In this document: positions 24,369 to 38,900 of the stretch, in pieces
How the letters are laid out: each line of letters opens with the position of its first letter
How positions within the stretch are numbered: the stretch's first letter is position 1
NCBI RefSeq assembly: GCF_048128805.1
Contig: NC_136003.1
Span: 23,712,840-23,776,839, forward strand
Source: Centroberyx gerrardi
Taxonomy: Eukaryota; Chordata; Actinopteri; Beryciformes; Berycidae
Direction of reading: 5' to 3'
DNA length: 64,000 nucleotides
Notes under the pieces: model-generated
Databases searched by the model: none
The model's input: the letters and a program-made list of their open reading frames with translations, nothing else
Told to the model about the DNA's origin: nothing
Position numbers and translations under genes: made by a program

Positions 24369-31683
<7,315 letters not shown>

Positions 31684-31771
31684 ACTGACTTCTCGTCTTG
31701 TGTCTAAACAGCAGCCCAGTCAGCATTAAGCGCTGAGCCGGTTACCTCTATCTCAAGTCACGTTCCCTCAC

Positions 31772-31842
31772 TCACCGAGATCTGAAACTTTTCCCCACAT
31801 GTAGGAGGCCTACATGTGGGGAAAAGTTTCAGATCTCGGTGA
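31772..31842. repeat. Perfect 34-bp inverted repeat with a 3-nt loop in the tubg1 3' UTR
   Basis: The left arm (31772-31805) begins TCACCGAGATCTGAAAC. The right arm (31809-31842) is its exact reverse complement, ending GTTTCAGATCTCGGTGA. The loop is AGG. All 34 pairs match, and the next outward pair does not. It starts 89 bp after the stop codon, so the mRNA would carry a very stable stem-loop. Confidence 0.95.
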
Positions 31843-32059
31843 CAAATATGTAGACATTTGCCCCTCAGCCCCTCATCTGAGAAATTTATTTTTATTATTT
31901 ATAGATTTGATATAGCGTGGAATGGCATAGCCGGTTAAGAACAGTTATAACAATACCTACTACACTGCACTAACCAGTAAATGAAATGGTGAAATTTAAA
32001 GTATTCATGTTTTTTTCTGGGGCCTTCTCAAGAACCACCAGATTCCCAAACCCCATTTA

Positions 32060-32065
32060 AATAAA
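32060..32065 (+). terminator. tubg1 proximal poly(A) signal
   Basis: AATAAA, 377 bp after the tubg1 stop codon. A second copy at 32889-32894 could give a longer transcript. Confidence 0.5.
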
Positions 32066-32888
32066 ACAATCCTGCCCTAAGAGTGATGGTAAGAATCCTG
32101 TCGCCTCTTCCCCTCGAGTTTGTGCTGAAGAATCAACATCTGTATTTCTGTCCCTGTACACAACCCATTACGGATGGGTATTAATAGTTTGACGTTTTCC
32201 TTTCTCCTACACTCTGCCTTTCCCCTCTTGTCCTGCATTCTTTCTTTATCTGTTTTTAAACAATGTAAGAGAACCTGTTGCCTTGTTTTGGTGATTTTTT
32301 TTTATACTGAGTGCAGTCCTCTTTTTTTATTGTATGTCGTTGATTTACAGTGGCACAAGCCTACACAGCATAGGAAATGTTTGGGTTAAGTAATGGGATT
32401 AGGATTGACAGAATGTGTGACATGATGGTTAATGATATGCTCTGAGTCCCAAACATTTCTGGCACGGTGTGTCGTACTTCTTGTCTGCTGCTGTGTTCTC
32501 ATAAATACAAGCACACACACACAATCATTAGAACCCAAGACGATAATCAGGCTGTCGTAAAAAAAACCAATATATTTCTAATTTATTGCTGCAGTGCATG
32601 CCTAACGAGATCGTCACAATTTGACGTTGGGCTTAAGCCAAAAACTGGTGGTGATTGTGTCATACAAACCGCATCGACATTCAGAGAGCAGCTGCATTTG
32701 TGTCACCTATAACAGAGAAAGTAACAATTTGCACAGACGGACATGCGTGTACAAGGATGGAACTAGTTTTAGCACTTCAACCTCGTGCCTGTATATATAT
32801 GTTCTCAAGGGAAGTTGGTTCATTGGTATTCTCATCCAAATGTATATACCGTTTCCTGTTTGGCTTGTTGGACCTGTGTACAATGATG

Positions 32889-32894
32889 AATAAA
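32889..32894 (+). terminator. tubg1 distal poly(A) signal
   Basis: AATAAA followed within 10 bp by a T/G-rich stretch (GATGTTTTC), a good downstream element. It would give a 3' UTR of about 1.2 kb. Confidence 0.5.
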
Positions 32895-33426
32895 GATGTT
32901 TTCTACTATTTTGTATTTTCTCTATTTTTTTTGTTGGCATTGATATCTGTAGGAATAGAGGAGCGTTAAAGTGGAACGTGCTCAGCAGGATGTGGAGGTC
33001 ATTTTGCACCCTAGTAGTTCAACCAAAGCTCTTAAGGTGTGTACAATGTAATGAAACCCTGTTCTGCACCTCACCTGGAGCTGCTGTGTATCAGCCAGTG
33101 GCTGTTCATCCAACTCAGTTAAGGCTCATTACCACGGGGGAACGTAGAGGCACTTAGCAACGCTTGCTCAACCAGCTATTGTTTTTAACCAGAAAAGCCA
33201 TTGAAGGGGGGGCAGCTTTCAGAGCTCTGCTGCTGGCGCCGAACTTCACCCTTTTATAAAGTGTCCCTGGTTGAAAACAATAGTCTTACACTGCTCGACT
33301 AGTCTAGGCACAAGAAAGCACATTTTTTGGAAGGAAATGAGGCCTGAATCTGAACAATAGTACCAAAGACGAAACATATGGTACAATGGTGCTGTTTTTT
33401 ATTAATTACATACAGTATTTATAGTT
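32895..33426. other. Convergent spacer between tubg1 and plekhh3
   Basis: About 0.5 kb separates the likely ends of the two genes. It holds an imperfect inverted repeat: CTATTGTTTTTAACCAG near 33176-33192 and CTGGTTGAAAACAATAG near 33268-33284. This suggests a small foldback remnant. No ORF of interest is present. Confidence 0.45.
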
Positions 33427-35840: not shown

Positions 35841-35937
<97 letters not shown>

Positions 35938-38900
35938 CAGATGGGTGGCTGTCTCAGTGTCTGTCTGGCATTGTCACAGGAGGGTGGGGAGGGATGATGT
36001 CATCCAGCTGCTGGAACAGACTGAATCCCCCAGAAACGGTCAGAGGATGATGTTCCTTGGCACGTTGTGGAGGACACACACATGCGCACACACGCACACG
36101 CACATGCACACACACCTCATCAACAAAAATAGCATTTCGTATGAGCGGATATTTCATCGCTTTGTCATGTTGTTCAGCTGCTGTTGCAGAAAAGAGGGAG
36201 GGCACAGCAGAGTAGTTCATTTGTTTATCTGTCTCCCTGTTACCCAGATCTTGGTGGACATGTCTGCCAAACCGCCATACACCACCGTGACCGTTACCCT
36301 TGCTCCAGTCCTGCTAATGCTTGCCTAAACATGATGTGAGCACTGACTAAAACATTACCCTAGCTTCAACCCTCACCTACTCTCTAACTTTGACTGTAAC
36401 CCTTGAATCAGCAGCTAATCTTGCCCTCACCCTTAACTCCAGGCCTGACCATAATCACCCCCTGCAAATCCGCTCCCTCTCAGACTCCCTGCCCAATTTG
36501 CTCAAAACCCTGCACATTTATGACAGAGCTATGTGAGGCCTTAAGTTCATAAAAGTAGGGGCCTTTCTCAGTTGCCCTTCAATTCGCCTGTTCGTCTGCA
36601 CCAATAAATAAATAAAAGCCACTTTTGTGCCTCACGAGAGATCACAGAGGGATTTTTGTTCCGTGTGGGAAGATGCAAGCAAATCTGCCCAGTGAAAGGC
36701 AAGATTTGTTCTCCTCTGAAAAAATGTCTGTTTGGAAGAATATCCGGGTTTCTGAGAAATGTTTTGGCTAATATTTTAATCTAACCACTGCAATAAAACT
36801 CACCCCCAGTTGCCATTTAATGCCAGGAAGTTAGACTTTTGGTGGTTAGCATCGGTCGGAGAGCAGGGGCAGGTTGTGTGCTCTCTTTTTAGACCAAATT
36901 AATGAGTGTTTTTAAAGTGGGTCACAGAGCTGAGGGGGGGGGTTGGGATATCATGAGCAGACAGCGTGCCTCTTTCACTGACTGTGCAGAACGCTGCATG
37001 GTGATAAGGCCAGTGGCCCAGCGCTACACACAAACCAAATCCTGACTGCGGTGAAGATAGACTGCACAGACCTAAACTCAATGAAGAAACTACTGAAGTC
37101 AAAGTAAGACCTGCTTTCACTTTGACATTCTCCCTCAGCCTCTACTCTCTGTGCTAACCCGGGACATAGACTGCCATACCTTGGTGGTTTCAAACAGCAG
37201 ATCCCGATCCCCAGCGGTGATCTTGAAGGTGTTGCTGTCGGAGACACCGTAGGAGCAGATCTGGCCATAAGGGAAGGACTCGAGGGCCTCGGCCTCTCCC
37301 TGCCGATACAGAGACACAGATGTAGCAGCTACGCCCAGCCACAGCTTCTGGGAGAAACTCCCTGTCGAACTCTGGAGAGAGGAAGAGGGAAGGAAATGTC
37401 AGAACAGTTCATTTATCTTCTCTTAACTTTTTTATCCTATTTTACCAGAGGAAGATTTGCTGAGCATACTCTTTCCAATAACACACGTTTCACATTTATT
37501 AAGTTCTAAACATTTCTACCTGGGGGCTGCTCAGTACAACCACAGTCCTCTACAGCTGGACACTGAGCAGCTCCACCAGAGCAGTTGGGGATTAAGTTGG
37601 GGATTCCTTGCTCAGGAATACCAATGGTGGTCGCTGAAGTAGGGGTCTCATTTGTTTCCCAGCTGGGTTTCAAGCCAGTGACCCTCTGTAACCTCAAACC
37701 ATTAGACTACCCCCATCCCCAGCTCTCAACTATTCTGAACAAAGAACAAAGTGTTACAGTAAAACTGAAACATGAGCTCACGACACTCACAATATAGAAG
37801 TCCACCTCGTAGAGAGTGCATCCAAACCCTGACCACTGGCGTGCGATGGTGAGGTAGGCGGCCATACTGTCCCTGCGGCTGTAGCCAGCCAGACCTTTCC
37901 AGCGCTCCACGATGGAGCCCATGACAGCCACCGCCTCCTCCTTCAGCCGACTCCGCAGACGCATGTCCTGCTCGACCTTCTGCTTGTGGGCCGCCGTGGC
38001 CGTGTGGCTCCACAGCGCCCCCGCCAGGAGGCCGGTGGGGAAGCGCTGCGTCGGGGGGCAGCCCTGAGCCGCCAGCTGGCAAGGGGGTAAGGCGGGGGGG
38101 GCGGAGAGGGACATTAGGACCCGAGCTTCCACCATGTGACTCGGGAAGAGCTCGTCCAGTGTCGGGCAGGGGGCGTGGGTGCTGAAGTCTCCGATCAGAC
38201 ACTGAAGCCTGAGGGCGGCCAAGGCCTGCAGGTCCTCTTCACAGGCTGGCAGCTGGCCACGCACCACCATCTCATGACACTGCAGCACAAAGACAGACAG
38301 AGAGGGACAGATGGGGAAGGGCAGACAGGACAGAGCGAAAGAAGGTACAGTCTGTTAGTAACAGCCTCCCTCCTGCTGTCCACCCATTCAACCCCACCCT
38401 GTTTTATTTTGTCCCATAACTCTTTTATAAGAGTCCTCAGGAAAAATGTTCTAATGAACGCAGTGCTGGCTGCCTCTTGGCCCCTCTGCACTGTGGCCAG
38501 TGATCTTAGTCATGCTTTTAAAGCATTGTGTTTTATTACAATTGTGGCCTGTAAGACATTAACAGTTGTTAAGTAAAAAACCTAATAATGCAATGAAGTA
38601 TGGGGAATGAGTCACTGGCAGTGCAGGCTGTTAAATCATATCTCAATATCAGCACTTGAATGGTCACTTGTGTCTCACGACAAAGAGAGCGCTGCTCCGC
38701 CGCCTTTGAGGAGTCGTGTTCTGCTCCATTACCTGCTCAAAGAGGAAGAGATACTCGATGCTGTCCACTGATATGCTGTCAGCATCCAACAGGCAGTAGA
38801 GCTTGAAACACAGTTTCCATTGGGAGTTAGACTCTGACTCTTTGGTGGAAAAGCTGGATGGTAGAGGGACACAAAGTGTTAGAAAGAGGAAACAGTGGGA

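Follow-up and report, generated by a model that had tools for sequence, protein, structure and literature searches.

A perfect 34-bp hairpin in the 3' UTR of a fish tubg1 gene, probably the scar of a recent template switch in DNA replication

The 3' untranslated region (UTR) of a tubg1-like gene, in the 64-kb stretch of DNA analysed here (the window), carries two arms that pair with each other at every position across a loop of three nucleotides. The question that this locus raises is how so perfect a stem came to lie there. The preliminary description of the locus had offered three answers, namely a recent inverted duplication, selection on the stem and a sequencing or assembly artefact; the first is the best supported by our results, whilst selection is not needed and an artefact is less likely. 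In the reading that we propose, and to which we give a probability of about three in four, a single local template switch during DNA replication left the hairpin behind as its scar, and did so recently. The event, its youth, the original arm and the idea that the RNA stem is a side effect which the 3' UTR tolerates are what we infer from one sequence.

Table 1 Coordinates of the hairpin and of the tubg1 features that surround it, as positions in the window
Feature	Position	Strand	Remarks
Gamma-tubulin-1 (tubg1-like) C-terminal coding part	31489-31683	+	64 codons and the stop TGA at 31681-31683
Proximal 3' UTR, from stop codon to hairpin	31684-31771	+	88 nt
Hairpin arm 1	31772-31805	+	34 nt
Loop AGG	31806-31808	+	3 nt
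Hairpin arm 2	31809-31842	+	34 nt, exact reverse complement of arm 1
Presumed remaining 3' UTR	31843-32910	+	AATAAA at 32060 and 32889; the end at 32910 is approximate, set from the last AATAAA

The geometry of the hairpin agrees with the preliminary description. All 34 positions of the two arms are complementary around the AGG loop (34/34, 100%); every pair is of the Watson-Crick type, with no G-U pair, each arm has one CpG, and the small palindromes ACATGT and AGATCT lie inside the arm. Outward of the arms only 2 of the next 12 position pairs are complementary, and the symmetry therefore stops abruptly, as had been described. The earlier placing of the hairpin 89 nt past the stop codon corresponds to the 88 nt that we count between the two, the difference being one of counting convention. 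Its assignment to the 3' UTR of tubg1 is also borne out, as the last 64 residues before the stop codon (ending WGTQEQ) match the gamma-tubulin-1 chains of solved structures, with a best E of 3.9e-36 and 12 distinct sequences among the matches listed. A candidate splice acceptor AG of the terminal exon is found at 31484-31485. The gene had been called ancient and slowly evolving, which holds for the protein but, in our judgement, not for the 3' UTR. Searches for relatives of the terminal-exon protein gave 74 pattern stretches in prokaryote genome contigs and 6 in viral contigs, and none in either set was confirmed. As for the neighbourhood, the window holds 56 stop-to-stop open reading frames of at least 110 aa; among the 10 that were searched against Pfam, one matched above the cut-off (FERM central domain, 37710-38354, minus strand, E 8e-13), one matched below it and eight had no match. 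The FERM domain lies on the minus strand, and the gene to which it belongs is therefore convergent with tubg1; from the synteny with human chromosome 17, we presume that this gene may be plekhh3. Between tubg1 and the FERM-domain exon there is an (AG)n microsatellite of ~90 bp (35843-35936).

A chance origin of the 34-nt arms is untenable. From base composition, the expected count of perfect 34-nt arms with a loop of at most 100 nt in the 64-kb window is ~3e-14, and among 60 order-3 Markov sequences of window length none had a perfect arm beyond 15 nt, the longest per sequence ranging from 10 to 15 nt. No other perfect arms of at least 14 nt with a loop of at most 100 nt occur in the window, and a mismatch-tolerant scan (loop at most 20 nt, score at least 12) returned one further hairpin, of 13 pairs; at the same threshold, six Markov sequences gave 0, 0, 0, 1, 0 and 0 hairpins. 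The expectation, together with the Markov and scan results, therefore indicates that the hairpin is a real feature of the given sequence and the sole long hairpin with a short loop within 64 kb. The available part of PMC13155455 describes perfect inverted repeats as frequent in eukaryotes, mostly short-armed and predominantly spacerless, and names introns and UTRs as favourable locations; because such repeats are common genome-wide, uniqueness within 64 kb is uninformative for the genome. When a 24-nt stretch was used to seek a second copy in the window, at most 3 mismatches being allowed, only the two arms matched, and BLAST of 31742-31872 (the hairpin with 30-nt flanks) against the window found otherwise only two 12-nt matches. 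The exact 27-nt arm pattern was found in none of the viral contigs. Longer-spaced imperfect inverted repeats number 28 pairs in the window, and the 25 that were shown are by eye mostly CA/TG repeats; an overlapping palindromic repeat of the GCTAACGTTAGCTAGCTAAC type lies at 2755-2788.

Perfect arms, a tiny loop and abrupt ends, taken together, make template switching the most economical explanation of the hairpin. What is found is a perfect reverse-complement copy beside its source (34/34, 3-nt spacer), which is the pattern by which such an event is recognised. In the mechanism that we propose, a nascent strand in which one arm had just been copied would fold back on itself or switch to the sister strand. 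Priming by a few complementary bases could start the copying, and GG at 31804-31805 with CC at 31809-31810 around AGG would suffice; ~30 bases would then be copied in reverse before the strand returned to its proper template, leaving in the 3' UTR a perfect inverted duplication whose loop is tiny. The opposite strand would be equally workable, with the other arm as the source. The return switch might have left its mark in the TCAC that is repeated in tandem at 31768-31775, but a unit of 4 nt is too short to be taken as evidence. It has been argued, in the accessible portion of PMC8794818, that one template-switch mutation can suffice to make a perfect stem, and microRNA loci with a history consistent with template switching were found there. 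In great apes, the majority of template-switch patterns lead to single inverted repeats and 65.0% of the events lengthen the sequence; compared with the copied lengths given in the same partial source (median 12, maximum 128), an arm of 34 nt is long but within the range (PMC7954356). This locus is not named in the excerpts among the matches listed for literature on template-switch hairpins and inverted repeats in fish, and the only match for tubg1 with hairpin and inverted repeat, also an excerpt, concerns gene amplification (PMC4357702).

The same arms could also have been reached by the correction of a quasi-palindrome, in which a template switch from one arm to the other removes the mismatches of an older imperfect inverted repeat, so that the structure would be older than its match suggests. 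This is a known route, a subset of great ape events had hairpin potential before the event (PMC7954356, in the part available), and the two small palindromes inside the arm are consistent with it. However, the 2 complementary pairs among the 12 outside the arms leave no remnant of partial symmetry, and only relatives could separate such a history from a de novo origin; we consider it unlikely. As to an artefact, in which a fold-back or hairpin read error would have been taken into the consensus, perfect short inverted repeats can indeed be created during library preparation. Nevertheless, the inversion in fold-back chimeras normally continues to the end of the read, whereas here the sequence continues, after exactly 34 nt, into different DNA with both AATAAA motifs downstream; an artefact is less likely for this reason, and we regard it as very improbable.

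Fish genomes contain foldback elements, and a degenerate foldback, with arms 82% identical over 90 columns, lies ~440 bp upstream of the hairpin, at 31083-31333. Both points could suggest that the hairpin is itself a tiny palindromic transposon (a MITE or foldback element), but a comparison of the flanks adjoining the arms, at lengths of 2 to 10 nt, shows no target-site duplication, a single C being common to both; no other copy occurs in the 64 kb, and an element of 71 bp, its loop of 3 nt included, would be very small. The probability of such an origin is negligible in our view, and a MITE was set aside on the first two of these grounds. The limits of the upstream foldback, by eye, are perhaps about 31072-31350, and the RNA fold of the region (31060-31360) reaches -120.5 kcal/mol. 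This foldback probably sits in the last tubg1 intron, upstream of the last exon, and may be an old palindromic MITE. Set beside the perfect hairpin, its diverged arms give a loose local contrast of age that is suggestive only; as a control the foldback is weak, because of its longer spacer and perhaps other origin.

If the hairpin arose by a template switch, one arm is the original and the other the copy. The log-likelihood of arm 1 minus that of arm 2 is +0.47, +0.48 and -2.7 under composition models of orders 0, 1 and 2; for true 3' UTR 34-mers (n=209), which belong to the training data of the model, the corresponding means are +0.40, +0.49 and +1.75, with 55%, 60% and 78% above zero. Composition leaves the original arm undecided because the orders disagree, with orders 0 and 1 leaning slightly towards arm 1 and order 2 towards arm 2. 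Under neutrality, the 68 arm positions, one CpG per arm included, would all stay unchanged with probability exp(-68 d), which amounts to 50% at a lineage divergence of d = 1.0% and to 5% at d = 4.4%. The 68 unchanged positions therefore indicate that the template-switch event is probably young if the arms are neutral, although selection or repeated correction could also hold the arms perfect.

Whatever its origin, the hairpin would be a very stable structure in the transcript. The folding energy of the 71 nt is -63.1 kcal/mol for RNA and -41.3 kcal/mol for DNA, with equal folding of the antisense strand, and for the 247 nt around the hairpin the z score is -8.67, with 0/200 shuffles as good. 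The preliminary description had regarded the stem as a near-ideal double-strand substrate of the Drosha, ADAR or Staufen type, a view that, as a prediction, suits dsRNA binders such as PKR, ADAR or Staufen, whilst the picture is mixed for Drosha. The activation of PKR requires ~30 bp, with up to ~100 bp being optimal, according to the available text of PMC12907492; the duplex is very stable and just above this lower figure, and dsRNA-binding proteins may therefore plausibly act on the tubg1 transcript. Turning to Drosha, the stem of 34 bp lies close to the Microprocessor optimum of ~35 bp, but the canonical pri-miRNA has an imperfect stem with an mGHG mismatch in its lower part, and there are 0 mismatches across the 34 bp here. 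The same source, as far as it was available, describes the apical loop as variable in length and its size as an enhancer (PMC7174388), and loop size is elsewhere stated, in a passage from PMC4780006, to affect Drosha cleavage in some cases. An apical UGU is present at 31800-31802, 3 nt before the loop and within the paired stem. At the offsets used for the two other motifs, basal UG is absent from 31758-31776 and CNNC is absent 16-18 nt past 3p cuts at 31827-31833, CNNC being found further on, from 31861. Small loops generally make poor substrates for Drosha/DGCR8, and one of 3 nt may be too small.

Rfam points in the same direction. No family reached its gathering score anywhere in the window; below that score, the hairpin had matches to nine families, of which eight are microRNA families (E 1.1e-07 to 0.01; six matches on the plus and three on the minus strand), and mir-147 had the best ratio (37.9/57 bits). 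Such a scatter over mutually unrelated families and over both strands is, in our reading, what any perfect stem would score, and a canonical microRNA at the hairpin is unlikely. These results also bear on whether the stem has been kept perfect by selection, as an RNA element that controls the tubg1 mRNA through Staufen, ADAR or PKR or that yields small RNAs. The folding energy and shuffle results, a length just over that needed for PKR and near the Microprocessor optimum (PMC12907492 and PMC7174388, both in part), the UGU near the loop and the nine Rfam matches would all suit such an element; the failure of all nine families to reach the gathering score, their mutual unrelatedness and occurrence on both strands, and the missing basal UG and CNNC do not. 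Moreover, selection for RNA pairing would tolerate G-U pairs, whereas the stem has none, and we hold a selected element to be quite improbable. Selection is not needed to explain the hairpin; it is singled out by none of the tests that we ran, nor is it refuted by any.

Most probably, then, a recognised type of mutation left the hairpin as its scar, and the RNA stem is stable but probably incidental. We also considered a bolder version, in which the hairpin is a newborn regulatory element; one replication error would have given a duplex of the size used by PKR, ADAR, Staufen or Dicer 88 nt past the tubg1 stop codon, and this duplex would already be altering the mRNA in this lineage by editing, decay, translation or small RNAs. 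Such a role is distinctly unlikely. If the template-switch reading is true, the locus would show cleanly how a single mutational step can build a perfect hairpin in an essential gene's 3' UTR, and it would offer a natural test of the effect of a 34-bp duplex on the mRNA of tubg1, a core microtubule-nucleating gene. Polymorphism of the hairpin, should it exist, would allow a direct comparison of alleles that have it with alleles that lack it.

Comparison with known systems would place the hairpin among the products of template switching. The 8.2-kb goldentouch inverted repeat of Midas cichlids, as described in the available part of PMC8758764, likewise lies in a fish gene and is thought to act via a cruciform or hairpin; unlike the tubg1 hairpin, it is transposon-derived, intronic and associated with a phenotype, and has a 4.1-kb stem. 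Another comparison is with MIR633, a microRNA locus with a template-switch-like origin (PMC8794818, in part). Both have a stem of microRNA-precursor length in transcribed DNA, and a phase of perfect pairing was inferred for MIR633 too, whereas the tubg1 hairpin has a 3-nt loop and no mismatches and is missing some of the pri-miRNA motifs. Relative to the hairpins attributed to template-switch mutations in the accessible portions of PMC8794818 and PMC7954356, the event here is read from one sequence, and the arm of 34 nt exceeds the great ape median copied length of 12. With those hairpins it shares perfect reverse-complement arms, a short spacer, sharp ends and a structure that is explicable by one event.
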